Shown: positions 4,864 to 62,400 of the stretch, piece by piece
Position numbering within the stretch: position 1 is the first letter of the stretch
How the letters are laid out: each line of letters opens with the position of its first letter
Source: Tribonema minus
Taxonomy: Eukaryota; Sar; Xanthophyceae; Tribonematales; Tribonemataceae
NCBI GenBank assembly: GCA_017506865.1
Contig: JAFCMP010000549.1
Location: 248,001-312,000 of the forward strand
Direction: 5' to 3'
DNA length: 64,000 nt
Position numbers and translations under genes: made by a program
Notes under the pieces: generated by a model
The model's database searches: none
Seen by the model: only the letters and a program-made list of their open reading frames with translations
Told to the model about the DNA's origin: nothing

Positions 4864-7800
4864 CGACAGCGCTGCCGCCACCATCTCCTGCGTGCGCTCC
4901 ATGTTCGCCGCCGCAGCCGTCGCGAGCTCCGTGCGCTGCGTGGCGTGCGCCGCCGCCAGCTCGGACTGCGCCGCCGCCGCCGCCGCAGCGGCGCTCTCGC
5001 ACTCGCCGGCGCGCAGCAGCTCGGTCTCGCGAGCCGCGCGCTCCGCTGCCTGATGCGCATCCAATGCCTGCGCCCGCGCCTCTGCCACCGCGGCAGCCGT
5101 CGCGACTGCTTGCGCCACCACCGCCGCGGCGTGGTCGCTGCCTGCGTCCGCTGCTGCTGCTGCCGCCGCTGCCGCGCTGCTGCTGGGTGCTGCTGCATTG
5201 CCAGACGTGCGTCGTGGTGTCTGCGCTGCCGTGCCAGAAGGACCATCGTCATCTGGCATACCTGCTGCTGCTGCTGCTGCTGCTGGTGCATGCGGCGCTG
5301 CCGCCGCGGCAGCGGCGCCGGCGCCGGCAGCAGACAGTTCATCGGCGGACGCACGCGGTGAGGGCGGGGCTGTTGTTGTGCGTGAAGAACTTTCCTGCGC
5401 GTTCTCCTGTGCGTGCTTCTGTTCGAGCGCCGCCAGCTCCTCTGCAAAGTGCTTCTCCAAGTCTGCGGGCGCTGCAACTGTGGCGGGCGTAGCGGCGGCG
5501 GCGGCAGTAGCGGCCTCTTGCAGCTCTGCCTCCAGCCGTGCCTGCAGGGGGTGGGAGAGTGTCGCAGCAGTGAGCGAGTGCTGTCTGCCTTGTTGCTTCA
5601 GGCGTGTCGGCATTTGCAGCTTGGTGTCAACTCAGCCTCAAGGCAGTGAAGGTGACGCAAGCGGAAATTGACCATGGAATCATAGACCTACAATCAAAAC
5701 AGCACATTCTGCAAAGACGCAGCGCAGTGGCGTTTTAACCATCCCTGCACCACAATGAGCAACTCGTTGCAAATGGTACATGGGAACCAATTTTTGCAGG
5801 AAAGACCTGCTTAGGTTTAGTATTACGCTCATCAGCATTACGTTAGGGCTAGGGCTACGTCCTTGGCGGCCAGCGCGGCACGCATCACGCCCTCCGCTAG
5901 GGTTACCTCTTTGCCTAACCTGACCCTGACCCTGTCCCTGCCCCGAACCTAACCTTAGAGTTCCTAACCCTAGGGTTAGTTGGGGTCATTAGCTACGGTA
6001 GGGCTGGCATTAGCTGCTTGGCGGCCAGCGATGTTATTTGTCATTGCAGGAAATACCTACTTAGGTTTAGCATTACGGTCATTAGCATTATGCTAGGCTA
6101 GGGGTAACCTGCTTGCGGCCAGCGCGGCGCGCATCACGCCCTACGCTAGGGTTACCTGCTTGCCTAACCCTACCCCTAACCCTAACCTACCCTTGTCCTA
6201 ACGCTAAGTCTAGGGTTCCTAATCCATGGGTTTGCTTTGTGGCCATGGCAAAACATTACGCTAGGGCTAGGGTTTACCTGCTTGGCGGCCAGCGCGGCAC
6301 GCATCACCTTACCCGTACCCTCAGCCTTACCCTAATCCTAGGGTTAGCACTAGTCACAAGCGTTACGCTAGGGCTAGTTAGTACGATTACCTGCTTGGCG
6401 GCCAGCGCGGCGCGCATCACGCCCTCCGCGCGCGCGCGCTCCGCCGCCAGCGCCTCCTCCGCCTCCTGCTGATCCGCCTCGAGCGCGCGCCGCAGCGCAT
6501 CCTTAGCGCCTTCGTCCAGCGCAGCAGCGCCCTCGCCTCCCTCGTCCGACAGCAGCGCTTCGAAGGCAACGCCCGCCGCCGCCGCCAGCGCATCTGCCTC
6601 CGCCGCCGCTGCCGCATCCACCGCCGCGGCGGCGGTGCGCGCCTCCTGGTGCAGCGCTTCGAGCGCCATGTCCGAGATTTGCGGAGGCGGGGCGGTTGCC
6701 GGTGTAACTGCTGCTGCTGCTGCGACTCTCTCTTCGGCTGCAGCAGCAGCAGATGCTGAAGGTGAGGGTGCTGCTCGAGCTGCAGCCGCTGCGGTTGGCG
6801 GCGGTGCAGTCGTCGCTGCTGCCGCTGCTGCTGGCGGCGGCGCAGTCGCCGCTGCTGCCGCTGCTGCTGGCGATGGCGCAGTCGTCGCTGCTGCTGCTGC
6901 TGCCGCCGATGGTGCGGCCGTCACATCTGCCGCCGCCACTGCTGGCAATGGCGCTGGTGCTGGTGCTGGTGCCGCAGGTGCCGCTGCTGCAGCAGCAGCA
7001 GCAGCTGCAGCAGCAGCTAGTGGCGGCAGGCTTTCTGCAGCCTGCACACGCACTGCAGCCGCTGCCGCCGCCGTATCCTTTGCTGCAACACCGGCCTCAG
7101 CTCCCATCACCGATTCTCTCACGCTGCCAGCCCTCATGCTGCTGGCGCGCCTGGCCTGCGATGCCCGCGCAACCGCCCCAGTCGCCACAACACCCTCCTT
7201 GACATCCGCCGCGCTGTCGTCGCTGGTGCTGCCGCTGTCCGGCGCAGTGGGCGCCGCGGAGCCGCTGCCGTTGCCCTTCTCGCAGCGCGCAGAGGACGCG
7301 CGCCTGCCGCCGCCGCTGCCGCTGCTGCTGCGGCGCGGCGGCCGCCCCACCGCAGCATCGCTCAGCATCGCCCTGATCTCGCCCAGCAGCTCCGGCAGGT
7401 CCGCGCCGCCGGTGGCCGCCGCCACCGCCGCCGCCAACTCGTCCCGTCCTGCCGCGGCCGCATCGTCCGCCGGCGGCGGCGGCGGCATCGCGCAGTCCGC
7501 ACACGCCTCCAGGTCTGCGCGCACGACGGCGCCGCGGTCGCGCGCCGCGCCCGCCGCCGCGCGCTCCTCCGCGGCGCGCGCCGCCACCAGCGCCAGCGCC
7601 TCCGCCAGCTGCGCCAGCAGCGGCTGCAGCGCGGCGGCGCCGCGTGCACCCTCCGCCGCCGCCGCGTCCGCGTTGCCCATCTCGGCGGCGCGCAGCAACG
7701 CGCGCGCGAGCGCCGCGGCGTCGTCGCCGAGTGCCGCCTCGAAGCCCGGCAGGCGTGCTATGAGCGCGCGCAGCGTCGCCGCCAGCGCCGCCGCCGCCGC

Positions 7801-9001
7801 GTCGCTGGCGGCGTCCGCCTCTGCTGCCGCCGCAAGCCCCGCGGTGACGTCCGCGGGCAGCGCCACGCGCGCGTCCGCCGCGACGCGCTGCCAGACGGCG
7901 GCGGCGTTCGCGCCGCGGCGCCGCTCGCGCTCGAGCCCCGCCTCCACGCCCTCCGCCACCTGCGCGCGCAGCAGCGCCAGGTCGCGCAGCAGCGTGCGCA
8001 GCGCCGCGGAGCCGCCGGCGCCGCTGGCAGCAGTCAGCGCCAGCCGCGCCTCCGCGTCCGCGTCGCCGTTGCCGCCGCCGCCGCCCGCCGCCGCCGCCGC
8101 CGCCGCCGCTGCCACCTCGTCGGCGGCGCGGCGCGCGAGGAGCGCGGGGCCGCCCGCGCAGCCGCCGCCCAGCGCCGCCTGCAGCCGCGCCAGGGTGTTG
8201 AGCGCTGCTGCCTCGGCTGCGGCGGCGCCGGCCTCGTGCAGCCTGCGCGCCGCGGCCTGCGCCTGGAGGCGCGCGAGGGTGGCGCGCGTGCGGCGCGCGG
8301 CGTCCGCGGCAGCGGCGTCGCGCGGGCTGTCGAGGCGCGCCGCGGAGAGCAGGCGCTTGAGCTCGTCGGCCTCCTGCAGCAGCAGCGCCTGCAACCGCGC
8401 TGCCAGGTCCTGTGCGTGTTGTTGTGTGTGAAGCCAGTGGGGGAGGGGGGGGAGGTGGCAGAGATGCAGGGTTTAGGTGAAGGGTAGTGCAAGGGCAGCT
8501 GACGACAGCGCTATCGTGAGACAGAGCTCTGTTGCAGCATCAGCGGCGCAAGCGTTGCTGGATCACGCCTCGGGAGGGGCGCCTGCGAGCATCACGTCGC
8601 TTCGCACAGTGGCGGCGGCACCGACGGCAGCAGCAGCAGCAGCAGCGGCAGCGGCAGCCGCAGCAGCCACGCCACGCCGCAACAACAAGCCAGAGCCAAT
8701 CGACGCAACGCGGCGCTGCCCCTCCTCACCTTCTGGTCCGCGAACTCCGACTCCATGGCGTCGTGGTGCCGCTGCAGCCTCTCCACCAGCTCCCGCATGT
8801 CCACGTCCTCCTGCCCCCACCGCGCCCCCTCCCAACCCCCCTCCCCCTCCCCCTCCCCCCCCCCTGCCCCCTCCTCCCCCCCCTCCCCCCCCATCTCCGG
8901 ATCGATATGGGGGCTGCGTGCGCGGGGGCTCCCAAACCCCCCGCCGCGCGCCTTCGCGGCCTGCCTCTCTGACATGTTTGGGCTGCCGATCTCTGCACCG
9001 T

Positions 9002-9032
<31 letters not shown>

Positions 9033-12000
9033 GCCGCTGCCGCGCGCTGCGGGGGCGGGCGAGACCTGGTCCTTGCGCGTCTTCTTGCGCAGCGCGCCAG
9101 CGACGGTGGCGGCGAGGGGGCGCCCCTTGGCGGCGCGGCGGTAGGCAGGCGCGTGCCCCACGCCTAATAGGGACAGTCAGGAAGGGAGTTGGGGTTAGGG
9201 TTGGGGTTAGCGTTGGGCTGAGGGCTGCAGTTAGGGTTAGGGTTGGGGCGGCGAGGGGGCGCCTTGGCGGCGCGGCGGCAGGCGGGGGCATGCCCTGCAC
9301 CTATTAGTGACAGCTAGGAAGGGAGTTGGGTCACAATTGGTTAGAGTCAGGGGTTGTTTGCCAGGTCGAAGGCACAGGCATCATGCATTCAGAACCTCCT
9401 GGGATGCATATTGATAGCGCAGGTGGCACACATGCATGCCAGCCTCCTGTTCCTCTCTCTGCCTCGGTACGCTGTGCCTTTTCATACAACATGAAGGGAG
9501 CATATCTCAATCTGTTGGACAGGTGCCAACAGAAGCCAAAATTACTTACAGCGCAGCTACACATTGAGGATGAAGTCATGACTCATAATACGTGCATTTA
9601 GTGAATGACAGCAGCCACACGACGGACATAGCCATGACACTTGCATGTACGCAAACTGCACAGAAGCAAACTACCAAGGTAGACTTGAAGTGTTAGAAAG
9701 CTTCAATACCTGTCGTCCACGCGCGGCTGCGGAAGTAGTACAGCGCCGCCACCACCGCGAGCGCCGCCGCAGCAAGGCCCCCCAGCAGCCCCCCTATAAG
9801 CGGCCAATCAGGGGTCAGCGTCAGCCCCCCATCCTGCTTGGCAACCCCCAATCCCACCAGCGCCGCCGTCGTCAGCGGCACAAACGCGGCGGCTGTCGTG
9901 CAGGCCATGTCCGCCGGCATGACAGTTACAACCGTCACCGCCCCGTCGCCGCAGCTGCTGGCGAACGCGTGCACGCCCGTTGTGGTGAACGTGAAGGCGA
10001 ACGCCGTGTACTGAGCACTGCCATCGGGGCTGAGCGCTGCTGCACGCGCCGCCACGTCGCGGAACGCGCCGTAGTCGAAATCTGCGTCAGTGTTCAGCAG
10101 CGAGTCCTTCTGGTACACGGGGTAGCAGCCGGCGGAGATGTCAAAGAGGAGGCTGTCGCCCACCGCGATGCACGTGAGCGGGCTGGCGATGCTCGGCTCC
10201 GCGGAGGCGGTGCTCCTGCGCCGCTGCTGCTGCCGCTGCTGCTGCTGCGGCTGCTGCTGCTGCTGCGGCGGCGGCTGCGCTGCACCGGCGGCATGGTAGT
10301 GCTGCGGCTGCTCGAGCACGTCTTCGTGATCGCCACGCCATGTCTGAAAGGCGGTGGTGCTGTTCATGGCCAATGGTTCGGCATACAAGTCGGCAGCGGC
10401 GATCCAGCTGCTCTGGGAGGTGCGCTGGGCGGTGTTTGTGTACATTCTGCGCCGCTTTTCCAGCAGTGCCGTCAGGTCCAGCTCCTGCATGCGGTTACGG
10501 TTAGAGTGAGGTGTAGTGAGCAAACATTACGGCACTCAACAGGGCACGGGACTCACCACATCATCAACTAAAACCATCGCGACCACATGAGCCTGCGAGC
10601 ATGTGTCCTTGCAGAATTCGTCGACCTTTTAAGAACACCGACTGTACGCAATCATTCCGCACGCTGTCTGCGCCTTCGTGCACACATACAGCATCCGCTC
10701 AAACGCTGATACAAATACACGACAGCCCTCCATTAACTCAACCCTCTTGACAGCCGAGCACTGACGCGCCACGCAGCAGCGCTCCCCCCCCCATCGCACC
10801 ACCCCGCTGCTGAGCACTGACACAGCACGCAGCAGCAGCGCTCACCTTCAGTGCCCGCTGCGCGTGCCGCCGCCCCCCCTCGCCCCCCGCACCCCCCGCC
10901 GCCGCCGCCACCGCCGCTGCTGTAACATTGCTCAACACGGAGCCCTCCCCGTACACGCCTGACATGACCGCCGACACAGTGAGTGCATAGACGCTACAGC
11001 CGTCGGCGCTGGTGCACGTCAGCGATCCCGCCAGTCCTGTGATCTTAGACGGCGGCACATATGACGTGCCGCTGCCGCCGCCGCCGCCGCTGCTGCCGCC
11101 GCCGGTGATGACGAGGTAGCCGGTGACGGGGTCGATGAATAGCGCCATTGCGGCGGCGCGGCAGGCGGCGTCGCAGACTGCGTCCAGGTCCTGCGCGCGC
11201 GGGAGTGGGGTGTGTGCACGGCTCAGCAGCATGGCTCAGCACTCTTATGAGCAGCATGGCTCAGCACGGCTCAGCAGCACCGCTCAGCACTCATCAGCAG
11301 CATGGCTCAGTGTGGGTCAGCACGGCTCAGCACTTTTCAACACACGGCTCAGCAGCACGGCTCAGCACTCTCATTCAGCACTCTCATCAGCAGCATGGCT
11401 CAGCACGGTTCAGTAACACGGCTCAGCGGTATCGTCAGCAGCATGGCTCAGCATGGTGGTTCAGCATGGCTCAGCATGTTTTGACACACGGCTCAGCAGG
11501 GCTCAGCAACACGGCTCAGCACGTTCAACACGCGGCTGAGCGCGGCTCAGCATGGCTCAGCACGGCTTGGAGTTGATGCTATTCACTGTCTGCTTCGCAC
11601 ACCGGCACAAGCAGCACCTGCAGGTTGCTGCACAGGCAGATGCCCCACGTCCAGAATTGCACACGCTGCACACAAGTTTCCGATAACGTTCCTCAAGAGA
11701 TAGACCTGTTTGTGCACGAGCCGCACCTGCAAGTGCTGCACTGGCAGATGCACCACTTCAAGAACTTAACACATTTCAAACAAGTTTACGAGAATGTTCA
11801 GCAAGACAGATGCTCCGAAGTACTTCGGAGCATTATGCAGGTCGCTGCACTGGCAGATGCCCCACTTCTCAAATCCGCCAGAACGCTGCACGCATTTTTC
11901 TCAAATGATGAATCAATGTTCACAACAAGGTATCTGTTTTAGCGTGCTGGCGCAAAAGACGCACCTGCAAGTCGGTGCACTGGCAGATGCCGGTGGAAGC

Positions 12001-15000
12001 GCTCAGCGTGCCGCCCGCGGCGCCGCACTGCGCAGTGCAGTCGTCCTGCTTTGCGCACGCGCCCTGCGCATCGAGCACTGACCCCGCGCCGCAGCGCCCG
12101 TACACTATGGGCTGGCAGTCGATGACGCCGTCTTCATCAGAGGGCAACGCCTGCAGTTACAAGGTGACGCATTTGCAGGGATGAAATTGTTGTAAAACAT
12201 GGTGTGTTGTACTTGAATTTGCATCATCTTCGACTTTCGACGACACCGGCCTCGTCGGAGGGCAGCGCCTGGCGCAGCAACAACAATATTTGCAGGGATG
12301 AGCTACTTGATGCCAGGCTATGGAGCGTCAGTGGTATTCTTCGCCAGAGGGCGGCGCCTGCGGTTACACAGGCGACGCATCGCAGGGATAAGTCTGCTCT
12401 AGGACACGGAGCGTCAGAGTATCACGCTTGAAGTTTCATCAACTTCAACAGTCAACAACGCCGTCTTCATCGGAGGGCAGCGCCTGCGGGTACACACGAC
12501 GTTTGAAGGGCAAAAGCAGTCTTAGGCCTTGAACATCATGCCTACAAGTGTGTACGTGAATATGATGCTTGAGCTTCCATCATCTTTGATGAAATGTGAT
12601 GCTGTCTTCGTCGGAGGGCGGCGCCTGCTGTCACACAGGCGACGCATTGCAGGGATGGGTTTTCGATAAAATATGGAGAGTAATAGTTGGATTTGCATTT
12701 AAAGTCCACTTGCAATGACGCCGTCTTTATCAGAGGGCAGCCCCTGCCATTAAACACGCAACATTTGAAAGGGAAAGGCAGTCTCAGGCCGTGAACATCA
12801 TGCCTACGAGTGTGTATGTGAACATGATGCTTGAGCTACAATCAATACTGATACATGTGACACTGTCTTCGTCAGAGGGCAGCGCCTGCGGTCACACAGG
12901 CGAAGCATTCGCAGGGACGACGTTTGGTGCAGAATATGGAGCGTCATAGTTGAATTGCATCATCTTCAACTTGCAACGACGCCACCTTCGTCGGGGGGCA
13001 GCGCCTGTGGCTACACAGGCGACGCCTCGCAGGGATGAGTTTGTATCAGGATCTGGAGCGTCAGAGTAGGATGTGGAGTGTCAGAGTTGAACTTGTATTC
13101 ACTTCAACAAGCGTCGGCGCCGTCCTCGTGGCAGCGCTGCGGGCCACACGCGCGATGCATGCAGGGCTTAGCCGGTCGTACCATCATAGGCCATGAAACG
13201 TCGTGAGAACATCATGCTTCCTGTATGTAAACATCAAATTTGAACTTGACTCAACAAGACTGGCGTGCGGTCTCTGCTAAAGGAACGCGTCGGCGAAAAC
13301 GGGCGCGGCATCTAGCAGTGACAGTTGCAGGACACAGGACGTCACGCTTGGACTTGCAGCATCTTCAGCAAGCCTCGTCAAACATCGCATTTGCAGCGCC
13401 CTACCTGTTCAAGGATCGAAGTGCGTGAATGCACAAGAGCGCATTTGCGCAAGGCTACGAAGTCTGGACTGAGTTCAGGAAAGCACATAGTTGCACCTTT
13501 CCGTCGGCGTAGAAGTTGTAGCCCGGCTTGCACAGGCACATGCCGTCGGAGGGCTGGAAGATACGGTTGAGGCCCACGCATGAGCACTGAGTCGCCCCCG
13601 CTGCGCTGGTGCTGCTGGCCGAGCAAGGCAGACACAGCGCAGCGCCGTACTCCGCCTGTTGAAGTGGCAGATCATCCAAACAGCAGCGCTCAGGCATTAA
13701 TCAATATTAAACTTTCTAAATTTGAGTTTACTGTGGCAAGGGGGTCAAGCTGGTGCTGCTGGCCGAGCATGGCAGACACACCGCTGCACTGTACACCGCC
13801 TGTTGCAGTGGCGAGTCATCATGCGTTCAGTCAAAGTTCAATGTTGAAGTAAGTGTGGCAAGGGATTGAACTGGTGCTGCTGGCTGAGCAAGGCAGACAC
13901 AGCGCCGCGCCGTACTCCGCCTGTGGCAGTGGGGGGACATCATGCGCACAGTCATACTTCAATTTTGCAGATTTCAAGAAGTCAAGCCTGTGTCACCGAC
14001 ACCTGTTGAGGTAGATGTGGCTACTATGGCCAGGGAGGGGCCAGGGAGGGGTTGAATTAGCGCTGCTGGCTGTGCAAGGCTGAAACAGTGCGGCACCGTG
14101 CTCCGTCTGTTAAAGTGGCATCGTGCAGTCAGCATTGCTCAGGCATACTCCGAAGTTGAAGTCGTGCAGTCAGCATTGCTCAGGCATACTCCAAAGTTGA
14201 AGTATGTATCGTCAGCCTTCGGCATCAAGCGCTCAGTGATTGAGAAGACAACTACTGTGGCGAGGGGGTTGAAGAGGCGCAGCTCGCTGAGCAGGGCCAG
14301 CGCAGTGTGACGCTCTGCCTGTGGTAGTTACTTGCGGTGCGTTAAAGCATATGTGTATACATGAAGCTGGCTTTGAACAAAGCAGCGGCAGCGCTGCGCC
14401 GTGATCCGCCTGCTGAGGGTCTGCGCAGAGTTAGAAATGTCAATCGCATCCTGCCTTCCTCGCATACATACATGTCTCTGCAAAGTACTTACATACATAC
14501 CATGTCTGACACCTCGAGTACGTCATGTGCACGGACCGACACCAGGCAGCGGAGATTCACCTGTGCAGCCGGAGTTGCTGCCAAAAGCGCAGGAACATAA
14601 CTTCAGCCTGAAGTTGAAGTTCCCCTGTACATTTGCCGGCATGCATATTGTTTCAACGCGTATGTGTCCACTTGCAGCTGAGAAGATGAAGAAGAGGGGC
14701 ATGAGTCGTACACCACTTCCCGTGCTGCCAGAGGTCTCCCGGCCTACTGAATACATCACGTCAATACTGAGCATCATCACCTGGTAGGAGCCTTCCGGAC
14801 ACAGCAGGCACGTAGATGCGTCAGACGTCCCTGCGAGAGGCTGATACATGCCGGGAGCGCATGGTATCTCCTCCCTGGCCCCCGCCGGGCAGTAGCTGCC
14901 CTTGGGGCATTTATAGCCTGCACGGCAGCGATGTGAGAGCATGTTAGTTCGACCAGTGCCTGGTTGCACAACTGACTGTCACCGACGATGCTGTCTGACG

Positions 15001-15084
15001 TGGCAGAGCAAGTCAGCCTAACCGTAACTTAAGATCACCCCTTGCAACGCAGTCATGGAACCAGCAGCAGCAGCAGCGGCGACG

Positions 15085-15123
<39 letters not shown>

Positions 15124-18100
15124 GCACCAGCAGCACAGGCACCAGCACCGGCAGCAGCGACCTTAGCGGCAAGCACACAGCAGCGCCAGAGCCATACGGA
15201 AGACCATTCCAGAACTGTTCCCGAAGACCATTCCAGAACTGGCCCGGAAGACCAGTTCCAGAACTGTACCGGAAGATCATTCCAGAACTGTTCCGGAAGA
15301 CTATTCCAGAACTGTTCCGGAAGATCATTCCAGGACTGTTCCGGAAGACCCATCCCCAGAACAGCAGCGCTCAGCATTGCTCACCTCTCTGCGTGTCCAC
15401 GTCTGTGGGCTCTGCTGCGGTTGCGCCTTCGAGGCAGATGTAGCCGGCGGTGCAGTTGGCGCACGTCAGCCGCAGCGGGTCCGCGCCGTACATGCCGCTC
15501 GGGCACATGCGGCTGGCGGCAGGCAGCGACGCAGGCGCAGAGTGCGTGTATCAGAATCGACGGCGCTCAGGCAGGGCTGTAGAGGTAGACAGCGGCTCTC
15601 GAGAAGGGCTGCAAAGATTGCAACTACCTAACTACTGGTAGTGCTGGCGGGCAGGATTCTGAACTACGAGGCTGCAATTAGAACAGCCGGTCACGACTAA
15701 GGGCGCTCACTAGCGCAGTACAATGATTAGGACAGCGTTGGTGCCCTTCTTAGACTTTAATGCGGACAACGTTTGAAGCACCTCCCATAGCGTGCAGTCC
15801 GAAACCCTGCAGATCCTTGCAACCCCACACACGTGATGCCTTTGCGCAGCAGAGGGCGTGCTCGCGAGTGGCTAAAGCCACCGTATGCAGTTACAATCAG
15901 TTACAGTCAGTCACATGGTCAAGCGCGAGCATCTCTGTCTTACTCGCACGCATTGCATGTGGTTGGCCAGAGTTCGACAGTGAAGTTGAAGGTTTCGGCG
16001 ACTTTGCCACAAGTTGGAGCCGTCTCTAATCTCCTAGGCAAAATTCAGGGTTGGGGTGCAATGACCATTCCAGAGCTGAGGGGTGATCAGGTTAGGGTCA
16101 GGGTTACGGTTTGCGTTAGGGCGGTGCCGCAGGCATCAGACTGCACACCACGTGTGTAGTATAGGGAATTTTCTCACCAGGCATCCTCCATCTCCCCCAG
16201 TACGTTGGTGGAGTTGCCATCAGTTGAGCCGTAGTAGCCCAGGGGGCAGATGCTGCGATGGGGGGAAGGGGGGGAAGCGGGGGGGGGGGAGGTCGTGACG
16301 ACGGTATGCTCCACATGCAAAGTGTGCAGTTGGGTATTGCTAGCGGAGAGGAGCGGGGAGAGTAGTGACTACCGGCGAAATGTACGCTTGAGGTGCAGAA
16401 GGAGCAGCTGCGCATGCTGAAAGCTATACGTGCCTGCAACACCTAGGCGACATGCATGTTGACAGCTACAGCTCTCAAGTTCCATGTGACGACACTTTGC
16501 CCAGCGCAGTAACTTGACCTGAAGTGTGCATGGCGCATTGCGTAGGCTGGCGCCTCTTCTGAGCACTGACCAGAGTTCATGCCTCAAATCATTGAGTCAA
16601 ATGCTCTCAACACAACCACGGCACAAAAAACATCTTCCTTTCAAGCGCCCACTCAGCACAGCAGCACAGATATCAGCGTGCATGCCGCCCAAGCAGTATA
16701 CTCACCTGTAACTGTCGGAGCCGAGAGGGCAGTACTGACCCAGTATACAGGCGATCGGGCATGCTGAGTACTTGTTGTTAAGTCTCGCTTAGCACGCGAA
16801 AAAGTTCGTATGGTGGATGTACAGCTTGCACCACCACCAGAATCTACATGCGTCTTGTGAACACCTGAGAGTGTCTCAATCATGCCAAGTACTACTCACC
16901 TGTAACTGTCGGAGCCGGGAGGGCAGTACTGACCCAGTATACAGGCGACCGGGGTGATGGACCCAGGGGGGCAGTGGTACCCTGCTGGGCACTGCTGCGG
17001 TGCTGCACCGCCACCACTGCAGTAGCCACCGCCTGCACCACCAACACAATGGTTTGATTGTCATTTGATGGTCACAGAGAGAAAATGTAGTGATGCTGGT
17101 CGTGAAACAGCTTAACTGCAGCCAAGGTGATGTAGTATACTAAAGCTTGGATACCCAACGTTTTATCAGGTTTCTCACGTCGCAGGCGCTGACAGCACAA
17201 TGCCGTAGCCGCGGCCTGCAAGGAGGCGAATGTGAAGGATCTGATTAATCTTGATGCTCCAGCCTTCAACTACTGAGACTTTTCATGCATGAATCTGCAG
17301 AGAATGCTCAATATGGGATAGACCAGGAACAGCACAAGCGCTGCTTAGCGGAATTGCACATGGGCCGTTGGCGGAACTGCACAAGGGCCGAGAAAGGTGG
17401 CACATGCACATTGCTGCACAACAGCAATGCATGCAATAGATGTACTTCAAGCATCTAGCTCTGTGCCTCAGCGCAAATACCTGGGCACATGGTGTAGTTG
17501 CTCGAAAGGGCGGGGCAGTAGGTGCCAGGCAGGCATACCAGGGGTCCCGTGCTCCCCTGCTCACAGTAGTCGCCCCCATCACAGCTGGTGCAGTCAGCCA
17601 CTGCGCGCAGCCCTGCGGTGCTGCCATAGGTTCCCTGCACATTGCCCAGGCGCAGGTCTCGTTAGCAACAGCAACATGACTAGACTAAGAGCCGCTACTG
17701 CAGCCCATAACCTCAACTCTCAACAATTGGTAAGCTCTTTACTTGATCTTGTACTGCAACTTTAACTTGTGCGCCTAGCAGGCGAGGACATTACCAATAC
17801 ATCGTGGCCGCATGTGTGTGCATTACTTGCAGACTAGAGGCTTGTGGGCACGTATTTGCACCATTTGCAAGCTACAGGTGCCGACTTACATAATCGTGAC
17901 TTCTACAAAGTCGACACATCAACGAGTACAGAGTTGAGGCACAAGGAAAGAGTTGAAGTATACAAGCACGCTACCTCAGGTGGCCGCCAATAATGTACTG
18001 TGCTTCAGTTCGTGAACAACAAAACAATGTGCGTCAGGCTGCGCAGCCCGATCACGACATCGATGCAGTCATCATTTCAAGCCTTGGCACAGTCATAACT

Positions 18101-46220: not shown

Positions 46221-46226
46221 AATTAC

Positions 46227-49200: not shown

Positions 49201-52200
49201 CACTTGCACAGTGAGAAGTGGGTGAGGATCGACACCGCTGTTGTTCATGCAGCAGAAGTCCTCCAGGCAGTAGAGGAACAGCGCGTAGGTGCCTTTTCGC
49301 GTGTGCGCAGTGAGAGATGCGAGACGCATGCGCAGTGAGGAAACGAGGAACGCAGTGAACAGCCAGACGTGTGCGCAGTGAGAGATGCGAAATGCGTGTG
49401 CGTACTGAGACCACAAGAAATGTATGCGCAGTGAGACGACGAGAACGTGTGCGCAGTGAGACACCAAAAGGCATGTTGCAGTGAGACAATGAGAAACATG
49501 TGCGCAGTGAGATGTTGAAAAATGTGTGCGCCGTGAGAGAACGAGAAACGTGTGCACAGTGAGACAACGAGAATCGTGTGCACAGTGAGACAACGAGAGA
49601 CGTGTGCGCAGTGAGACAATCAGAAACGTGTGCGCAGTGGGGTAGTGCAGTGGGGTATTGGAAAAAGGTGTGCGCAATGAGACAACTAGAAACATATACA
49701 CAGCGAGATAACGAGAGTCAAAACCACGTTACATCTTGCTCACCGCGCCGACCATAAAGTCTACACTTGAGTTGATGCTCACTGGTGGCCGCTTCGCACA
49801 TGCAGTCAACCTCAGTACGCAGCAGCACTCAGCTTGCTCACCAACATGCAGCAGTGCTCAACTCGCTCACCACGCCCACCACATGCACTTGAGACAGTGC
49901 TGGGCGCTGCACACATGCTGTCAACCTCAATTTGCAGCAACGCTCAGCTCGCTCACTAATTTCAACACATGAACTCGAGACAGTGCGGGGCACTGCGTTC
50001 GTACTGTCACACTCGATGCGCAGCACCGCCCAGCTCGTTCTTCAACATGCCGCAGTGCTCAACTCGCCCACCGCGTCAACCTCGATGCACAGCAACGCTC
50101 AGCTCGCTCACCGCGCGAAACACATGAACTTGAGAAAGTGGTCACTGCGTACACGCTGTCAAACTCAATTCCAGCGAGGCTCAACTCCCTCAGTGCGCCA
50201 ACCATATGTTCTTACCCTTGAGACTATGCTCACTGCTGGCCACTGCAAATACACATTGTCGAGTAACATGCAGCAGTAACATGCAGCAATGCTCTGCTCG
50301 CTCACCGTGCCACGCGACCACGATGAAGGGCGAGTTAGCGGCGGTGGCCTCAAACAGGTCATGTTGCTCACCGCGCCTAAAAACACACACTTGAGACGGC
50401 GCCAACTACTGGGTGCTGCAGACATGCTGTTCATATTCGATCCGCAGCAGCGCTCAGCTCATTCACTATTTTAAACACATGATCTTGAGACAGTGCTGAA
50501 GCTGTGCACTTGCTGTCAAATTCAATTTGCAGCAACGCTCAGCTCCCTCACCACACTCCAACATGCAGCAGCGCTCATACACTCACGGCACCAACCATGG
50601 AGTCTACACTTGAGCCGGTGCTCATTGCTGGCGCTGCATATGCACACTGTCATGCTCAATTGGCAGCAACGCTCAGCTCCCTCACCGTGCCACGCGACCA
50701 CGTTGAAGGGCGAATGAGCAGCTGTGGCCTCAAACAACTGGCCCATGTACTTGTGAGTCAGGACCCACGGTTCGGCAGTAGCCTCTTCGGTGTCGTCATA
50801 CGCGGCTTTCGGGAACCTGGAATGGGCAGCAGTGAGTGATGGTGACGATCAGATAGTGCTGAGGCCCGCAACATGGTGCTTGCAATTAAACTCGCACTTT
50901 CTTGGCTTGAGATTGAGCTGCAGTGGTACACGGTGGCGTGATGTCAGACAGTCTACAGAGTGTCTACGAAGATGTTGAGGTTGGGAGTGAAGCAGTAGTT
51001 AAGTGTACGAATATGGTGTTTTATAAATAAATACTGCTCGGCATGTACTTGTCCATGTTTTGAACTTATGACAATCTTCAACTTCCAGTACTGCATGCAG
51101 CGTTAGGTAATAACAGTCCGATGATGATGATCATCAGCGCTGCCTGCACGCACATGTCAACACCTGATAAGACTTGCCGAGGTAGTTGCAACCTTGCTTC
51201 AACTGGCATGCAGGTTCAGGCCCCAGCTATGTCAGGATGCAAATTCCGCTTTGAAAGGGGTGTGCGTATATTGTAGATCTATAGCCTCTCACTCAGCACT
51301 TGCACATACTTCTAAGGACTCTTGAGCTATCTTTCTCACAGAGGACGATCGACTGACAGAGGTGGTGAGTGATGTGAGTGTTAATAGTGGCATTCTCACA
51401 TGCCAGCTATGCCTAAGTGTTGCCGCGCAAATCCGAAACCATGCATAACGCCACACTCTGCAGTGTTATTGTATGTGTTCAGCGAGCAATACATGCTTCT
51501 ACAGATCACAAGAAATGGCAAAGAAACGGCGGTTCATAACTGAAAAACACAGCGCTGGTACTGAACTCACTTGATGTCGCGAGGGTTGGCCAAACCGTTG
51601 GAGCCAATGGGTCCCAAATCCGGCAGTGTGAAGTGGCCCTTGAAGATCTGCCATGAAAATCATAAACAACACATAGTGAAGTGTCATGACAATCATGAAT
51701 ATCCACAGTGAAGTGGCCCTTAAAGATCTGGCATGAAAATCATGAACCAGCAAAGCGAAGTGTCATGAAAATCACGAATGACCACGGAAAAGAGGCAACA
51801 CAACAATATTTCGTTGCTTTGCATACATGCAATGGTCTTTGCCTGCCCTGCCTGCTTGCCCCTTAGCGTAGTACAAAGAGGCCTGCGAAAGATCTGCCTC
51901 AAATGTCTTGAACAACCATGTTGAAGTGTCATGACAATTGTGGACAACCACAGCTGCCAGGAAGTGGCCATGAAATTCATGGACAAAGAAGCTTACATCA
52001 GTGACCGCAGCCATGCACGTCAAATCACGGCGGCAGGCGCTGACGCGATAAAATCCGCGCAAAGTAGCCTTTGAGGGTGCGCCATGAAGTTAATGATTGG
52101 CGACAGAAAATCATGGAGCATTGCAGCGGCAGGCACATAATGACGCAATTGCATCAGTGGTACATAGCATTATGAAGCGACAGATTATGAATACTTCTGA

Positions 52201-54304: not shown

Positions 54305-54568
54305 GGCTCAGGCGAGTAGTAATCAAGCTAAGCTGGTATGAAGCAGGAGAAAGCACTTGCTGCTGCTACTCGTTTAAAGCTGCTTGAATGCCTGCGTCTC
54401 TGACCTCACTGTCAACGTTTTACTTCAAGTTCAAGGTTCAAGTTGCAGTTTGCAGTTGCACTTGAAGTACTGAAAAAAACGAATCAGGCACGAGTTGCGG
54501 CATGGGACTCCATTGGGCAGTTTGCACACGCGCTGCCGGCGACCTCCATGATAGGTCTGTCTGTGGGC

Positions 54569-54597
54569 TGAAGTATAACATTCAATGTTATACTTCA
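54569..54597. repeat. 29-bp palindrome
   Basis: TGAAGTATAACATT and AATGTTATACTTCA, 14-bp perfect arms around one base. It begins and ends with the TGAAGT word common in this window. It could form a hairpin or bind a dimer; it lies inside a plus-strand open frame of doubtful status. Confidence 0.7.
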
Positions 54598-56344
54598 TGG
54601 GCGGGTGGTAGCAATCAACCCGACCTCGAACGCACCAACGCCAAAGCACACTTTGAAAGATTCGCCTGCACTGCCGAATTCCAGGCGAATGGCCACAACT
54701 TGTATTACCAAGACTTGTCGCGCCACAAAGAACAGCCCGATTACTCGATGGGCGATCAGGATTCAATGGGATACCTTACAGACAGTGCCGGCATCAAAAC
54801 CATGCTCGAAGACGGCAAACGGCCCACCTGTTTTCCTCCCAGCAAACCCTCTGTCTGGCGCCACCCACCCCATGTCCCTCCGTGTCCTCCTTGCTTTTTC
54901 TGCGTTTTTGGCTTTTGTGTTCTGCAATTGGCTCCATCTTATTCACAACCACGCACCACACCAGGGTGCAGCGTAGGCAGCCTTTTGTAAAAGAAAGGCC
55001 GCATTGACGCGCAGCGCCACCTCCAGTGCCGCTGCCGCCGCTGCAGCCGCTGCCGCAGCGCCTCGGCTATGCCAAACCTGAAGTACGTGCTCATGCCTCT
55101 AATGTTATGCCTGCCGCAAAGCCCCAAAAGAGATGGGCGGGGTGGAGCCTCTCTTTGACTTGAGAAAAAGACAGGGACGAGACAACCAGCACGATGTGCA
55201 CCTCGAGTTGGCTGTATTAGCCAGAGACCCCACATGCTGCTTTGCCGCACCAGCTCCAACGAGGACAGCGCGTGCTGCATGCATGCGTATGCACTACGAT
55301 GTGCTGTTGGGAACTACATTCTGAGGCTGCATCTACGCGCCAAACATCCAGCTTCTCTCGAGACCTCGACACATACGCCCATGGTGAGCATTGCAAGGGT
55401 GGCTCAAGCGGTGCACATGTCTGCGCAGCATTGAACATGGATGTCCACTCTGCGCGAGTTCTAGAATCATTGGGTACATTGGTGTTGCTTGCATCATGTT
55501 GTGTGCCCTTTGTGCCATGAGTGCCCATATATGTAGCCCGGGAACAGCAGGCCGAAGCCAGCAACGTCTTGCATGTGATGACTCCGTGCCATATGACAGC
55601 TGAAGTTCTTGTTATGATTGCAAGTCACAATAGCACGTATAGAGATGACACAAGGTTGGCAGATCAGGCAAGACAGTGGCCACAGCCCAGACACAAAGCC
55701 GGAGCAGACAAATACACCGAACACAAACAACCCGACACACCTGTAGGGACCAACGGCATTACATGTAGATACGGTGGCGGTATGGCAGATCTGATCAGAG
55801 AGCGACACGAAGGGGATTGGCACGAGGTGGCAGCGGCAGCACGCTGTTGGGATAAAGAGTGGTTGTGGCAGTGCTCAGGGCCCAAACGTCAGCGTCAGCG
55901 GCGGCGTCGCCACGTGGCGACGACCGGCAGCACCGCCACTTGGCGGCGCCCGCTGAGCGCTGTGTGTGGACTGTGGCTGCAACCAGGAGGGGCGGGGATG
56001 CTAATGGAAGGCGCGTGCACGCGCTGCCGCTGCTGCGTCTCTAGTAGGGGAGCGTTCGAGACGATAACTAGATGGAGGTAGTGTGCTCTGCGGGTCCATG
56101 CGTTGGGTGGCGGTGGTAGTTGAGAGTAACCTAACTTGTAGTACCCTTGGAATTGCGACGGAAAACGGCTTGGAGCGGTGAGATAAAATACAGTGCGCGT
56201 GCGCGCACCCCCCCCCCGTGCGCCGCGCGTTGCACTTGTGCAAGTGTCAACAGTAAGATACAGGTAGGTAGGTACCTTTGGGAACATGGCTCGCATAATT
56301 CGCCGACTGCTGCTCGCGGGGCGTACACATGTACCCCCTCTGCA

Positions 56345-56450
56345 GCCCCCCCCCCCCCCCCCTGGAGATTTGTTGTCCATCCCCCCCCCCCGATTTCTTG
56401 CCCCTTGCCCCTCCTTCCCCCCCTGGCCCGGGCAGTAGTGACCCCCCCCT
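56345..56450 (-). terminator. Sense-strand G-rich runs just after the symporter stop
   Basis: Five or more G runs of 7 to 17 bases (for example 56346-56362 and 56381-56391) begin about 15 bases after the stop at 56460. The same pattern follows the HGD stop. Confidence 0.3.
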
Positions 56451-56459
56451 CCTCTCACT

Positions 56460-59400
56460 CTATCGCGGCGGCGCATCCCCCAGTGGCGCAGGCTCCACCC
56501 CCCCCTCCTTACCCCCCGCCGCCGCAGCTGCCATCTCCGTGGCCATCTCCGCCTCCGTCACCTCCCCCGCGACCGCCTGCTCCACGTTCTTAGGCGCGGC
56601 GACGGGCGACAGCCACGTCGCCGGAATGATGTTCAGCAGCGGGCGCCCGCCGCGGCGGCGCTCCGCCCACGACACCGCGTACATTACGAGGGCGCAGACT
56701 ATGGGCGAGACGAGCGAGTCTACGCCTGTGAAGTCGCTGAGCGCTGTCGCGTCGCACGTCTCGGGGTCCCAGTGCTCAGCTGCGGGGGCTTCTACGAAGA
56801 GGGGGAGGCCGGCCTGGCCGGGGCCGTAGCCGTAGGCGTAGTTGCCTGCGGGGAGGATGAGAGAGCCGTCCTGGAAGGAGGGGGGGGGGGGGGGTGGGGG
56901 GTGAGGGGGGTGAGGAATGCAATGGTGGGCTGGAATGTCCTGCGCCGCTGCTGAGAAGAGAGTACCGCATCACTGAAAACATGCCGCTCGCACCATTGGT
57001 AGCGCGTACTCTGGGATTCTGCGTGTGGCAATGCCGCACAGCAGGCCGCACACACTGTGACGTTCACCCCTCGCCCTGAGTGGATATGGGTATGGGTATG
57101 TACACTGGGACAAAAGCCTACATACTGAGCGCTGAACCCCCTGAGAAGCGGTACTCGAAAATGACATGCAGGAGAATGCTGCACACTCTGTCGCTGCACA
57201 ATCTGTCGCCCTGACCCTACCTTAGGTTATGAGCATGCTCACAGCGGGTATGGTATGTGTAAGGGAGGGGAAACCCACTTGCTGAACCCTCAGCTTGGGA
57301 AGAGCATACTCTAGGATGACGCGCGTGGCAATGCCTGCCAGCAGGCCGCACACGCGCCAACCCTGATCATAAGCCTAGGGTATGGGTATGTATGTACTTT
57401 ACATTGTGAGCAAAGCCTACATACATACCTTAGGAAGCGCGTACTCCAGGATGACGCGCGTTAGGATGCCGGCCAGCAGGCCGCACACGCCGCCGCCCGG
57501 CGTCACCGAGTTGGGCGTGTAGACTAATGCCAGCAGCGGCGCGATGGAGCCCTGCAGGGGGGGAATGAGGGTAAACAATGCGGGGGCACGGCTCAGTAAC
57601 GGTGGCCGCAGGGGAGCATACTGTATGTAATTTGGAGTACTCTTTATTAATTCTTGCTCAGATAGTGGAAGTCCAGCTTGCTACCAGAATTTACATGAAC
57701 ACCTCGGAAGTGTCTCAATGCGCATTGGCGATCGCTTCTAAACGACATCGCCATGCATGTACTTCTACTTCATTTTTTTTTGCGTTTGAGGGGTGGAAAC
57801 CCTATTCCGCACCACGCCATGCACAACACGTACTACAGTATGCTCCCATCGAGCTCGTGCCAGCTTGCCCCGCTGGGATACCTCAAGCATACACAACCAC
57901 TCACAAATTTACCTACATATGGGACTGTATGTACTTGAAGTATACATTAGAAGTGCTGTAGGTTGAAACGGCCCAGTGTGTGATGATGCAAAACCCTCCG
58001 CCTCCGCCATGGCTCAGAGACTGTTTTCCAGCACCGTGACTCTGGCTGTGATGCTGGCACTGGGGCCTTGCAATGAGCAAGTCAAAGAGAACGGTGCGCG
58101 GCTGTTGTCGGACAAGCAAAGCGCAGCTGCCGTGCTTGAGTTAGACTTACATTGAAGTGCATACATGCCCATGAGTGCATTGAAAGTGAACCGTTGCCAT
58201 TTATCATTAACACAAACATAATGAAAGCTTGCCTGGCAGCCATCGCCTCTACTGCAGCTGTGCCGAACACCCGATGGCCGCTCATTATCGCGAAGTGTGA
58301 TGTGGCCATGCTCCAACTCCCCCCAGTGCGGCTTGCAGAAAGTACCCATTCTACGCCTAGTCCCCAATAAAATTCACGTTCTTCACAATAAGCTGTCACT
58401 CACCGCCAGCGCAATGTCGAAGGGCATGCCCACATACCAGCTATCGCCTCTACTGCAGCTGTGCTAAACATCCGATGCCTGCTTACCAGCGCAAAGTGTG
58501 ATGTGGCCCTGCTGCCAACTCCCTCCAATGGAGTTTGCAGAAAGTATCTATTCTACACTTGGCCCCCAATAAAACCCTTTTAAACATGTTCTTGCGGCGT
58601 ATATACTTGAGGGGTATATGCTTGTAATACGTGCATACTTGTGCTTTGAAAACGAAGGTGCTGTCACTCACCGCCAGCGCAATGTCGAAGGCGACGACTA
58701 GCAGGTATCCCGTGCGGTTGTACTCCGCGGCAACGATGGCCGCGATGATGGTGACAATGGGCACGCTGACGCGCACGATGATGAGCAGCATGGGCTCCGT
58801 GATCACCTGCAATGCATACATACCCATGCGTACGTACCCACAGAAATGTGCAAGTGAGCTGAGTGTATGAAATGTGCAAGTGAGCTTAGTGTGTGCCGAC
58901 ATGAGCGGAACTTTACCATAACCTGCAATACATGCGTACCCACAGATATGCAGCGCGTGAGCTGGCTGACTGTGAACCACCCTACCCATCAGTGTCCTGT
59001 CGTGCACGTGTGCGGGCGGTTGAATCACATGTTGAAGTAGCTTTCGAGTTTCTAGCAGCATGGGCTCCGTGATGACCCGCGATACGTACATGCCCATAGA
59101 TGGGTAAGCAGCGTGAATAACGATACCTGATTCTGACCCCAGACTTTACGGTATGTATTGCAAAGCGTACGGCATGCTGCGCACCCAGATCGCGCCTGCA
59201 TGACACTTTACGCAGCGTACACACGTGAGCACCTTGCGACGAGGCAACAGCGCCTCGTGTTACAGTTACACGCAGCAGCAGCGCTCCACAGCGCACGCAC
59301 CCACTGTCGTCGGTCGCGCCCAGTGGATTGTTTTACGGTATGTATTGCAAGGCAACAGCACCTCCTGTGACAGTTATGGTCAGCACCCGCAGCAGCAGCG

Positions 59401-62400
59401 CTCCACAGCGCACGCACGCACTCACCGTCGTCGGCCGGAACCAGTGGATGGCCTTCTTGCCGACGTTGTGCGACAGCACCGTTGCAATGGCGAGAATGAC
59501 GCCAGTTGCGGTAGACATGCTCGCCGCGACAATGCCAATGAGGCACCATGCGCCTAGCGCCACGGGGACCTGCGACGTCGCGAGCTTGAGGAACGCGTCT
59601 TCGTCCGGGAGCCACTCAGCGCATGTGGGCAGGCCCAGGATCGACGAGCACCTGCGAATATGGAAGGTGAGTAGGTAGGTAGGTAAGTTGCTGGGGTAGG
59701 CAGGGTATGTAGCTGTTGTAAGCTGGAGGAGCGCGTCTTCATCCGGGAGCCACGTCGGCAGGCCCAGGATCGATGAGCACCTACCTGCGCATCATGTGGG
59801 GTAGGCATCAAGTAAAGTACTGAATAGGTAATGACACAGGGCAGGAGGGTGTGATCCACTGTGACCACTGGGCGCATGCAATGACGTGTACAGAATGACC
59901 GAGCACTGTGCATACTGCACATGGTGCTTCCCAGTGGCCGAGCGCACACACACACTGTTGCATGTGTTTTTGAAACCAGGAGGTGATGACAGAGCAGGTA
60001 CGTAGGTATTGCGGCACTCACGTGTCTGGAGCACGGTATGCTTCATTTATCAAAGCAGGACGTAGACAGGCGAATAGGGCAGGTATGTAGGTGTTGCGGC
60101 ACTCACGTGTCTGCCGCGTACTCTGCGAATATGCTGTCGGGCCCGTAGAAGACCTTCATGAAGCCGCCGTTGAACGCAAAGGGAATGCCCACGGCAAATG
60201 TGATCAGGCCGCCTGCACAGACAGACAATGTTCAGGTGTGTCAGAGATTGGGACTCAGAATCGAGTTATGACCGACTCGCATGCCAGAGTAGAAGACCTT
60301 CATGAAGCCGCCGTTGAACGCAAAGGGGGTCCCCCACGGCAAATGCGACGAGACCCCCCTGTGCACATGGTGGCAATTCAGCTTTTGCACGTCAGAATGA
60401 CAATTCAGCTTTTGCACGTCAGAGGCTTGGACTGGGACATTGAGACGTGTGCTGACACGCAATGACATGCACCGAGCAATGAGCATTGCCGGCACTACAT
60501 GGTAGCTATTAGGACACATGAGGCACCGTGCACGGACAGACAATGTTCAGGCGCATCAGGGACTGGGAATCAGAGTCATACCAGGTGAGTAAGTGAGTAA
60601 TGACTCTGATGCCAGAGAGTGCTTCAAAGGGAGTTTGCGCTGCATATGGATGCTGTCAAAGTGGCCATGTAGTGGTCTGCAGGTTCTGGACAGTGCTGAG
60701 GATGAGTGAAAACTGCAATTAATGTGTGATTCAACTGCACGGCGATATAATGCGGCGACCTCAGTTGAAAAAAACAACCGCGCCACAGGAATTGCGTGCA
60801 GTAAGCAACGGCTGCAGAGCGCGCCATTTGCAAGTGGAAGCAACGCGCACAAAAGATCCGCTCCAAAGGTACTGCCATTTGCCTTTCTCGATATTTTGGC
60901 ACTCAACTTACTGTGATGCTGAGCTTCCTGCATTTCCGTCACATTTAATCCATGAGTGACGCAGACAACACGTGCCCAGCAGCTCACCGAGCAGACAGGC
61001 GATGGTGGCAATGCGGGGGGTCTTTGCGGCCATGCAGCGCGCCTGGAAGTCCAGCGCGGACAGGTTGCCGAAGCCCTGCACAAGGCCAATTGAAAGGGGG
61101 GGCGAGGGGGAAGGGTGAGATTACCTGGAAGGATGCTAAGCGCGATGCCCTGACGACGAGTTCATGTGGGTATACATGTGGACAATGAGTGTACTCTGTC
61201 TGTACTGTACTGCTGCATCTGCAGTAGAGTTCTTCTGCAGCAGGAGGATTGAGAAGGGGGGGGGGGGCATCACTTGAGGGATGCTAGAGCGCCATGACGA
61301 ACAAGTTTGTGTGCGTACGCCTGTATGCATTCGATGCTTCCTGGCTCACCAGGGCTATGATGGTGGTACATGGCGTTGAGGAACGACGCCCGGCCGTCGA
61401 AGGTTAACTTCAACCTGCACCTGAAGTTACGTATATTTCTGTAGTATGTAGTGTACGGATACGATGCGCCTCCTGCATTGAAAACACTACTCAGGATGAT
61501 GATGGTGGCCCACTTGTGTAGCACATGGCGTCGGGGAAGGGCGCGAGCCCATCGAACCTCAAGTTCAATCACCAGTTGAAGTGATATGAATGTATTTAAA
61601 CAATAAGTGCACTTCAATTATGTAATCAAACCCCCTGCCTGAAAAACTCGCCAGGATGATGACGATGGCCCAGTTGTAGTACACGGCATTGGGGAACGAC
61701 GCAGCCCATCAAAGCTCAACTTCACTCACCACTTGAAGTATGTACTTGAAAGGAATTATTCATTCAATGCTTCCTGCATTAAAAACACTCACCAGGATGA
61801 TGACGGTCGCCCAGTTGTAGTACACGGCGTTGGGGAACGGCGCCAGACCATCAAAGCTCGTGAACGACTCCGGGTGAATGAGCGCATCTCCCACGGGCCA
61901 TGCGCCATTATCCACGCCATTCGGGCCCCACACTTGCTCGTTGTAGACACAGGTCTCCGGCTCCGTGCCCGGCACGCCATTGTACATTTCGCACACTTGC
62001 TGATCAGGGTAAATATAGCCGGGAAAGCCTACGGAGGCCGGGGGGTACTGCTGGGAGTAGTTGCTCAGCATGTAGGCGGAGAAGACGATGAGGCCGGTGA
62101 CGCCTGTGAGGGCCTGCACGACGTCTGTTGTTTTGGGGGAGGGGGGAAGAGGGGGGGGGGGGGGGGAGGGGGGCTCCGAGTTTGAGTGCAGATGCATACA
62201 TGCGGGCCAAGTAGTTAAAAAAATATGGCGCCAGTCAGCAATGCGTGCGCAAGTGCACGCGGACAGAAGCATTGGTGTGCTTCGCACGGTTTGGACGTGA
62301 TTGCGCTGAGTTTCTCGCTCAGCATGCGCACAGACCCCAACCCTAACCCTAGGTAAGGACCGTGACGCTCAGCAGCGTCTTAACGGTGTCACTGATTTAG

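Follow-up and report, generated by a model that had tools for sequence, protein, structure and literature searches.

Differences in intron length are usually ascribed to transposons, deletion bias and drift. Several described systems come close to the duplications across exon-intron junctions found in this genome. In a potato RdRp gene, a new intron and exon arose from a single tandem duplication that crossed an intron-exon boundary (PMC4974935). The potato unit ran from the 3′ part of the intron through the splice site into the exon edge, with splice signals drawn from the parental junction, and the units found here likewise combine an exon edge and its splice site with neighbouring intron, in head-to-tail repetition. 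Unlike the single potato event, however, the present duplications affect about a fifth of the tested junctions, often form ladders and lengthen existing introns. Intron gain by AGGT exonic duplication, with cases in Drosophila, is likewise a local tandem duplication of coding DNA related to splice sites, but there an exon contains the whole unit and the new intron is unit-sized (PMC2891723), whereas the present units straddle a junction that already exists.

Small tandem duplications can also arise from staggered double-strand breaks through CST/Pol alpha-primase fill-in, with units under 100 bp (PMC8355091). Like the copies described below, which are direct, adjacent duplications of tens to hundreds of bp, they are direct, adjacent and short, and two offset nicks suffice for them; unlike them, the present units are ~160 bp long, are re-duplicated and sit at junctions, a targeting that the excerpted part of PMC8355091 does not describe, and the likeness is one of sequence structure. 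Introners share with our case the growth of intron DNA, in algae among others, and a nucleosome-linker connection, but they are dispersed elements that create introns (PMC9860276), whereas the copies found here stay local, differ from gene to gene and stem from the edge of the host exon. Finally, the direct repeats reported near splice sites at intron borders are 4–30 bp long and link the 5′ and 3′ borders of a single intron, while here 20–118 bp of exon from one border recur inside the intron (PMC11782384). A search of the open literature turned up no account of duplications centred on junctions across a genome, the potato case being a known single junction-crossing event.

The window, a stretch of 64,000 nucleotides, belongs to a eukaryotic genome of 158 Mb and was analysed together with 18 further 10-kb stretches, giving 244 kb of tested DNA, or 0.15% of the genome. 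Gene models were ab initio predictions from a gene finder trained for this analysis. An exon-edge copy was defined as a 40-mer of exon edge matching in the adjoining intron with a score of at least 20, and copy counts are quoted for introns of at least 100 bp. Predicted exons under 24–30 bp and 32 copy-like short exons were removed prior to counting, as were 9 of 353 edges for low complexity and 1 of 14 terminal CDS edges.

Three genes of the window, all on the minus strand, carry 24 copied junctions with 62 listed copies, which bears out the original observation of at least 20 such junctions in three genes between 5860 and 61735; the region involved runs from 5862, the start of the outermost copy, to ~61859, where the last of the exon edges ends. 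Fifteen of the junctions belong to a gene for a giant Cys-rich CPAGYYC-repeat protein, 942 residues of which found no match in Pfam, so that a resemblance of its repeats to GCC2/GCC3 (ephrin-receptor-like) repeats is unsupported. The donor edge of its exon 6391–6737 is followed by four downstream copies (6278–6307, 6109–6146, 6014–6030 and 5862–5897), the edge and copies together covering 5862–6429. Acceptor edges are copied upstream of exons 8730–9163 (one copy, unit of 137 bp; 9108–9295), 11965–12150 (four copies; 12116–12885) and 13497–13655 (four; 13606–14409). Exon 11965–12150 also has three copies of its donor edge (11618–11991), and donor copies accompany exons 16900–17002 (one; 16695–16953), 21477–21676 (a 13-copy array at 20315–21402; 20315–21517 with the edge), 25495–25771 (two; 24965–25531), 29412–29579 (three, spaced ~200 bp apart; 28808–29514), 31726–31832 (one; 31598–31782), 34417–34523 (two; 34122–34464), 37378–37545 (two; 37073–37458), 39428–39487 (three; 38710–39479), 41536–41667 (three; 41059–41560) and 42582–42723 (one; 42378–42686).

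The homogentisate 1,2-dioxygenase (HGD) gene has three copied junctions, namely the acceptor edge of exon 46287–46550 (three copies; 46485–46908) and both edges of exon 48675–48901 (donor, two copies, 48332–48737; acceptor, two copies, 48837–49292). Six more lie in a sodium:solute symporter gene (Pfam PF00474). Its donor edges are copied at exons 57429–57551 (two; 56998–57490), 58672–58806 (one, unit of 268 bp; 58404–58691) and 61793–62124 (two; 61492–61859), and its acceptor edges at exons 58672–58806 (one, unit of 270 bp; 58784–59076), 59426–59651 (one; 59583–59780) and 60107–60212 (one; 60145–60355).

The pattern extends beyond the window. In the cleaned set for the full 244 kb, 45 of 170 donors and 28 of 174 acceptors have a copy in the adjoining intron at a score of at least 20 (40/183 and 28/188 in the uncleaned exon set); the window accounts for 16 of 48 testable donors and 8 of 49 acceptors, and the DNA outside it for 29/122 and 20/125. 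For example, Prp8 and one dynein gene, whose models align to solved homologues, together have copies at 6/22 donors and 6/22 acceptors. Of the 17 other loci having testable junctions, 5 are devoid of copies (0/42 junctions). When the identical edges were compared with introns of other loci, only 1 of 3440 comparisons reached a score of 20, which sets the chance level, speaks against introner-like dispersal and shows that copies are not common there. Other dispersed elements are present as well, a set of 180 introns giving 25 pairs between different loci. In the uncleaned set at the same score, no copy was found in wrong-side introns (0/107 and 0/109, or 0/216 in total) or in reverse complement (0/371), and exon middles recurred in adjoining introns once (1/181); with the score lowered to at least 16, these controls gave 1 and 1, 2, and 9 matches, respectively. 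The sidedness noted earlier, with donor copies downstream and acceptor copies upstream, is not independent evidence, since geometry alone demands it of any junction-crossing tandem duplication.

Most copies are tandem duplications with a unit of ~160 bp, made of at most 118 bp of exon and at least 40 bp of intron. Once 2 of the 73 copied junctions had been left out for want of room, half or more of the intron portion of the unit was found to recur behind the copy in 45 of 71 usable cases (control mean 0.0), and exon-edge/intron BLAST pairs no more than 1500 bp apart comprise 164 direct and 0 inverted pairs. Both results tell against templated insertion during break repair, by a polymerase-theta-like enzyme or from a nascent transcript, in which a junction patch would be placed in the adjoining intron with no clean tandem unit; free insertion of patches should yield some inverted pairs. 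As a general account we regard it as unlikely, but some copies may be templated insertions, since less than 20% of the unit's intron part lies behind the copy in 14 of the 71 cases, five of these with at least 93% exon identity. The single copy of exon 16900–17002 is such a patch of ~66 bp (54 bp of exon at 96% and 12 bp of intron), located 193 bp from its source with the remainder of the unit absent behind it. Tandem duplication of a whole exon, one exon then decaying, would suit the symporter exon 58672–58806, both of whose edges are copied at nearly equal distances; it was rejected as almost certainly wrong, given that complete exons are not copied, exon middles hardly recur and the overhang of the best copies ends at 118 bp. 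The distribution of that overhang over the unit also departs strongly from uniformity (KS p 2e-12; exons of at least 150 bp, n=54).

With the array at exon 21477–21676 excluded, first spacings have a median of 163 bp (n=72, minimum 79) and later ones of 159.5 bp (n=66, minimum 43). The period of the best copy falls within 100–250 bp for 57 of 73 junctions and never below 100 bp, and although ladders reach 13 copies, 32 of the 73 junctions have a single one. Short-unit replication slippage of the microsatellite or minisatellite kind, slippage having earlier been left open, is improbable at such spacings. The 13-copy array at 20315–21402 is the closest case to a minisatellite. Decay with distance, also claimed earlier, is a tendency and not a rule: the nearest copy scores best at 29 of 41 multi-copy junctions (16.3 expected), and among neighbouring pairs the nearer copy is higher in 50, lower in 24 and tied in 4. 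No clear motif was found at the breakpoints. With C>T and G>A decay tolerated, C|G at the exon breakpoint occurs in weak excess (17/72 vs 9.7 expected, p=0.02), as does G as first base (35 vs 25.4, p=0.02); a CpG nick signal that had looked strong by eye shrank to the former figure and is not relied on.

If duplication were uniform along genes, those in exons would be purged, those crossing junctions tolerated, and the frozen exon would keep a pair recognisable for longer, giving exon edges a merely apparent enrichment. This accounts for sidedness and for the near absence of exon-middle copies; local repeats between stretches of intron are indeed present (118 BLAST pairs at less than 1500 bp). 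Yet when edge and deep-intron copies are matched for age, the edge/deep-intron ratio remains 8.2 (95% CI 4.8–17) in introns of at least 900 bp and 4.4 (2.2–9.6) in those of at least 600 bp, and near-junction intron DNA, where both copies drift, is at 3.4–4.5 times the deep-intron level. With age matched, the rate at deep-intron points is 4–8 times lower. Uniform tandem duplication with frozen exons was also simulated at four rates, with 250 introns each and parameters of our own choosing, and proved insufficient: an edge value of.33 comes with a deep value of.24, against.43 and.07 observed, plain edge/deep ratios are 1.2–2.2 against 4.5–6.3, and exon windows at -100 match in 4–18% against 2–3%. 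Such uniform duplication is therefore an improbable account of the data.

Other comparisons agree. Among 123 repeat families, 97 touch a junction or lie within 25 bp of one, as against 47.2 expected with sliding footprints, and 26 are unattached to any junction. Intergenic DNA is nearly empty of such repeats, with local direct repeats making up 1.1% of 32 kb as against 24% of 128 kb of intron, another point against uniform duplication, though interstitial telomere repeats do occur there (10 in 33 kb of intergenic DNA, 65 in 146 kb of intron). These telomere repeats, at densities of 0.53, 0.35 and 0.46 per kb, show no concentration towards junctions and so do not explain the junction excess. 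CDS starts and stops have no adjoining copies (0/13) compared with 69/234 splice junctions in introns of at least 500 bp, a difference that reaches Fisher p=0.02 on small numbers. Given the age-matched excess of 4–8 times, the failed uniform simulation and the near-empty intergenic DNA, the exon-intron junction looks to be a favoured duplication site. None of the outcomes specified beforehand as refuting this interpretation was observed.

Computation shows that the copies, once made, decay like neutral DNA. Changes at codon positions 1, 2 and 3 run at.075,.072 and.154, that is, d, d and 2d, a pattern that fits a copy drifting freely beside an exon changing at third positions only, and 18 net length changes are not multiples of three as against 3 that are. 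It is conceivable that copies are kept for a function, serving perhaps as spare or alternative splice sites or as alternative ends of exons, since a usable site is retained in 37/45 donor and 24/28 acceptor copies and the gene finder called 32 copies as short exons. Identical splice dinucleotides, however, stand near the expectation from the exon part (donors 32 vs 35.6, acceptors 24 vs 22.0), changes by codon position and indels follow the pattern of unconstrained DNA, and the dynein copy, if read as an exon, would insert 20 residues opposite a gap in the best homologue. Alignments of HGD and of the printed part of Prp8 cross several copied junctions without extra residues. On the neutrality of the codon-position and splice-dinucleotide tests, retention for function was rejected as very unlikely.

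Visible local repeats make up 24% of the bases in introns of at least 300 bp, 76% being without a visible local copy, and families that include an exon edge make up 18%; in introns of 100–500 bp, copies occur at just 4 of 116 junctions. The further claim that intron bulk stems mainly from duplicated junctions is therefore not established. Among introns of at least 500 bp, those with copies are longer than those without (median 965 vs 752, p=0.004), and at all lengths the medians are 944 and 490 bp, a contrast inflated by the fact that introns under 100 bp never scored as matches. A median of 944 bp in copy-bearing introns, set against periods mostly of 100–250 bp in units that span an existing junction, also differs from AGGT exonic duplication, where intron and unit are equal in length. 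In introns of at least 500 bp, junctions with copies are not distinguished from those without by edge GC, intron GC or exon length.

Taken together, the data probably reflect local head-to-tail duplication of junction-straddling segments, recurring in introns, with the nearest copies usually youngest. A segment mostly of 100–250 bp straddling an existing junction would be duplicated head to tail; the original junction would remain in use, and the new copy would land on the intron side with a pseudo splice site, presumably be ignored by splicing and spliced out, and then decay unconstrained. The junction-proximal unit would tend to be re-duplicated, such that an array would extend outward from its junction, with the closest copy in most cases the latest to form. 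The excess would mirror where duplications arise, as at a mutational hot spot, and not which ones are kept. Our best guess at the cause is the repair of staggered breaks or paired nicks through fill-in and end joining, the two lying about one nucleosome repeat apart, one within the last ~100 bp of the exon and the other in the neighbouring intron. Natural insertions in rice have reportedly been set alongside staggered-break small tandem duplications by Vaughn and Bennetzen in 2014. The agreement between unit spacing and a nucleosome repeat is a correlation. More tentatively, and with the odds somewhat against it, the junction itself may be a mutational target in this lineage, where breakage or re-synthesis aimed at junctions, in nucleosome-length steps, perhaps coupled to splicing or exon chromatin, would bud off copies of the exon edge; introns would then lengthen from their borders, and old intron DNA would be partly decayed exon edges.

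Exon-edge copies constitute a distinct local source of intron length that can be read directly, and one route to long introns. The divergence of a copy from the partly frozen exon gives its age. Since codon positions 1 and 2 stay fixed in the exon, every copy serves as a neutral fossil that can be dated against the source next to it, making rates of intron growth, indels and substitution measurable per junction from one genome. Finally, the copies leave many introns with decoy splice sites no more than a few hundred bases from the genuine ones, which offers a natural test of spliceosome choice.

Exon edges in Tribonema minus recur within the introns that adjoin them. Across 244 kb of DNA, comprising the window and 18 stretches of 10 kb (six picked for dynein or Prp8 genes, three adjoining the window, and nine from arbitrary contigs at one arbitrary offset), 45 of 170 donor-edge and 28 of 174 acceptor-edge 40-mers were matched in the adjoining intron at a score of at least 20, donors more often than acceptors (p = 0.025). 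The sample, with 344 testable junctions left once 32 copy-like exons had been removed, represents 0.15% of a genome that totals 158,181,000 bases across 554 contigs. Copies of exon edges at window junctions, as originally noted, were found at 16/48 donors and 8/49 acceptors; the test design followed sight of the window, and the other loci, serving as the replicate, gave 29/122 and 20/125. Of the 17 other loci having testable junctions, 12 had matches, and L006, L007, L008, L009 and L012 had none at 42 junctions. Copies kept almost entirely to the adjoining intron and to the expected side: at the same score, only 1 of 3440 comparisons with introns of other loci matched and, in the uncleaned set, matches numbered 0/107 and 0/109 in wrong-side introns, 1/181 for the middles of exons, and 0/371 for edges taken as reverse complements.

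The underlying gene models are ab initio, without RNA support, and come from a hidden Markov model whose unsupervised training drew on the window plus 26 further loci (~273 kb). All window genes are predicted on the minus strand, namely those for a sodium:solute symporter, homogentisate 1,2-dioxygenase, and a Cys-rich CPAGYYC-repeat protein running on into an Ala-rich tail. Comparison with solved proteins served to check the models of the dioxygenase, Prp8 (locus L026) and one inner-arm-like dynein (locus L027), the last with top match to chain 8glv_Cn, a Chlamydomonas axoneme entry; on this match the genome had a green-algal look. In these models, before cleaning and without RNA support, 39/238 introns (~16%) have GC donors, a share that seems high by green-alga standards.

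The copies are direct, mostly tandem, junction-spanning and repeated, with a unit of ~160 bp. At the 73 junctions with copies, the best-copy period is 100–543 bp (100–250 bp in 57), the exon part of the best copy is 20–118 bp (20 being the detection limit), and the intron part of the unit is at least 40 bp. The exon part falls far below that expected from uniform placement within the unit (exons of at least 150 bp, n = 54, KS p 2e-12). At least half of the unit's intron part was found again behind the copy in 45 of 71 usable cases (control 0.0), and less than one-fifth in 14. There are 151 copies in total, and 41 junctions have at least two. The median is 163 bp for first spacings (n = 72) and 159.5 bp for later ones (n = 66), one 13-copy array excluded. 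The noted decay of copies with distance stands as a tendency, the nearest copy being the best at 29 of these 41 junctions (16.3 expected), and does not hold at every junction. The longest array seen, 13 donor-edge copies at window positions 20315–21402, has some spacings near 45 bp.

After birth, the copies evolve neutrally. Between exon and copy there are 94/1257 changes at first codon positions, 91/1266 at second and 194/1257 at third, a d, d, 2d pattern indicating that the copy drifts throughout and the exon at third positions only. Net length changes are multiples of three in 3 cases and not in 18. A usable splice dinucleotide is retained in 37/45 donor and 24/28 acceptor copies, and an identical one in 32 (35.6 expected) and 24 (22.0 expected), respectively.

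Uniform duplication, with copies merely easier to recognize beside constrained exons, would, going by simulation, yield a milder excess than that observed. In 43 introns of at least 900 bp, the share of 40-bp windows with a copy no more than 400 bp away was 43% for exon edges, 21% for near intron (20–120 bp), and 6.8% for deep intron (240–440 bp). Age matching (identity thresholds of 90% at the edge and 80% inside introns), which is conservative because exon third positions drift too, gave an edge/deep ratio of 8.2 (95% CI 4.8–17), or 4.4 (2.2–9.6) for introns of at least 600 bp. A simulation in which duplication was uniform, introns drifted and exons changed at third positions only (a single run, one seed, author-chosen parameters) gave plain ratios of 1.2–2.2 versus 4.5–6.3 observed. 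Among the 123 local-repeat families in introns of at least 300 bp, an exon is touched by 79, and another 18 are no more than 25 bp from a junction, versus 47.2 expected from sliding footprints; for introns of at least 800 bp, 51/71 are junction-linked versus 19.9 expected. Independence of the BLAST pairs and repeat families is incomplete. Coding-sequence starts and stops had copies in 0/13 cases versus 69/234 splice junctions of introns of at least 500 bp. Intergenic DNA proved poor in local repeats (1.1% of 32 kb, in pieces up to 1000 bp, called intergenic by the gene finder and much of it from exon-poor loci L008, L010 and L012, versus 24% of the bases in introns of at least 300 bp).

Although repeat-poor, intergenic DNA does carry interstitial telomere repeats. 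TTAGGG is the telomere repeat, as a long array at the start of contig C2 indicates; two units with at most one mismatch occur 10 times in 33 kb of intergenic DNA and 65 times in 146 kb of intron (for example, window introns at 1715–1763, 25431–25479, 33784–33868 and 36483–36532, and also L004, L024 and L029), with none in 65 kb of exon, none of the reversed motif, and no junction trend in position within introns. Such repeats may have been left behind by break repair. Other elements include a ~2.5–3 kb tandem duplication, with exons, inside the Cys-rich giant gene (window 27714–28186, 30715–31178, 33222–33694 and 35775–36238; adjacent copies 75–91% identical), and dispersed ~100–140 bp elements common to introns of the window, L004 and L024 (72–83% identity, some inverted), possibly small transposons. 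Three sampled loci on different contigs, L005, L006 and L014, have near-identical predicted introns in common (e.g., 266 bp at 98.9%, and 105 bp at 96–97% from intron base 1) and possibly include transposon genes.

Duplication goes with intron length, copies being commoner in longer introns (4/116 junctions at 100–500 bp, 32/151 at 500–900 bp, and 37/86 at 900 bp or more). The suggestion that it is the main source of intron bulk was not borne out: in introns of at least 300 bp, families including an exon edge make up 18% of bases, and the bulk of the sequence has no visible local source. That remainder may be older, decayed copies.

Selection against disturbed splicing predicts that junction-crossing duplications should be rarer than deep-intron ones. 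The opposite was observed, from which we infer a mutation bias rather than retention. Our best guess at a cause is fill-in repair: staggered breaks or paired nicks about one nucleosome repeat apart would be filled in, leaving a tandem duplication at the junction. No motif was secured at the duplication breakpoints examined. Small tandem duplications are known from fill-in of staggered breaks (PMC8355091). The closest known case comes from potato, where a single tandem duplication across an intron–exon boundary gave a gene a new intron (PMC4974935). The open literature searched yielded no report of pervasive junction-centred duplication, weak evidence given that subscription papers fell mostly outside its scope.

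Finally, 32 predicted short exons (in L024–L029, L004 and L011) are in-frame junction copies misread by the ab initio gene finder, and annotators of this genome should be warned that such copies can pass for short exons.
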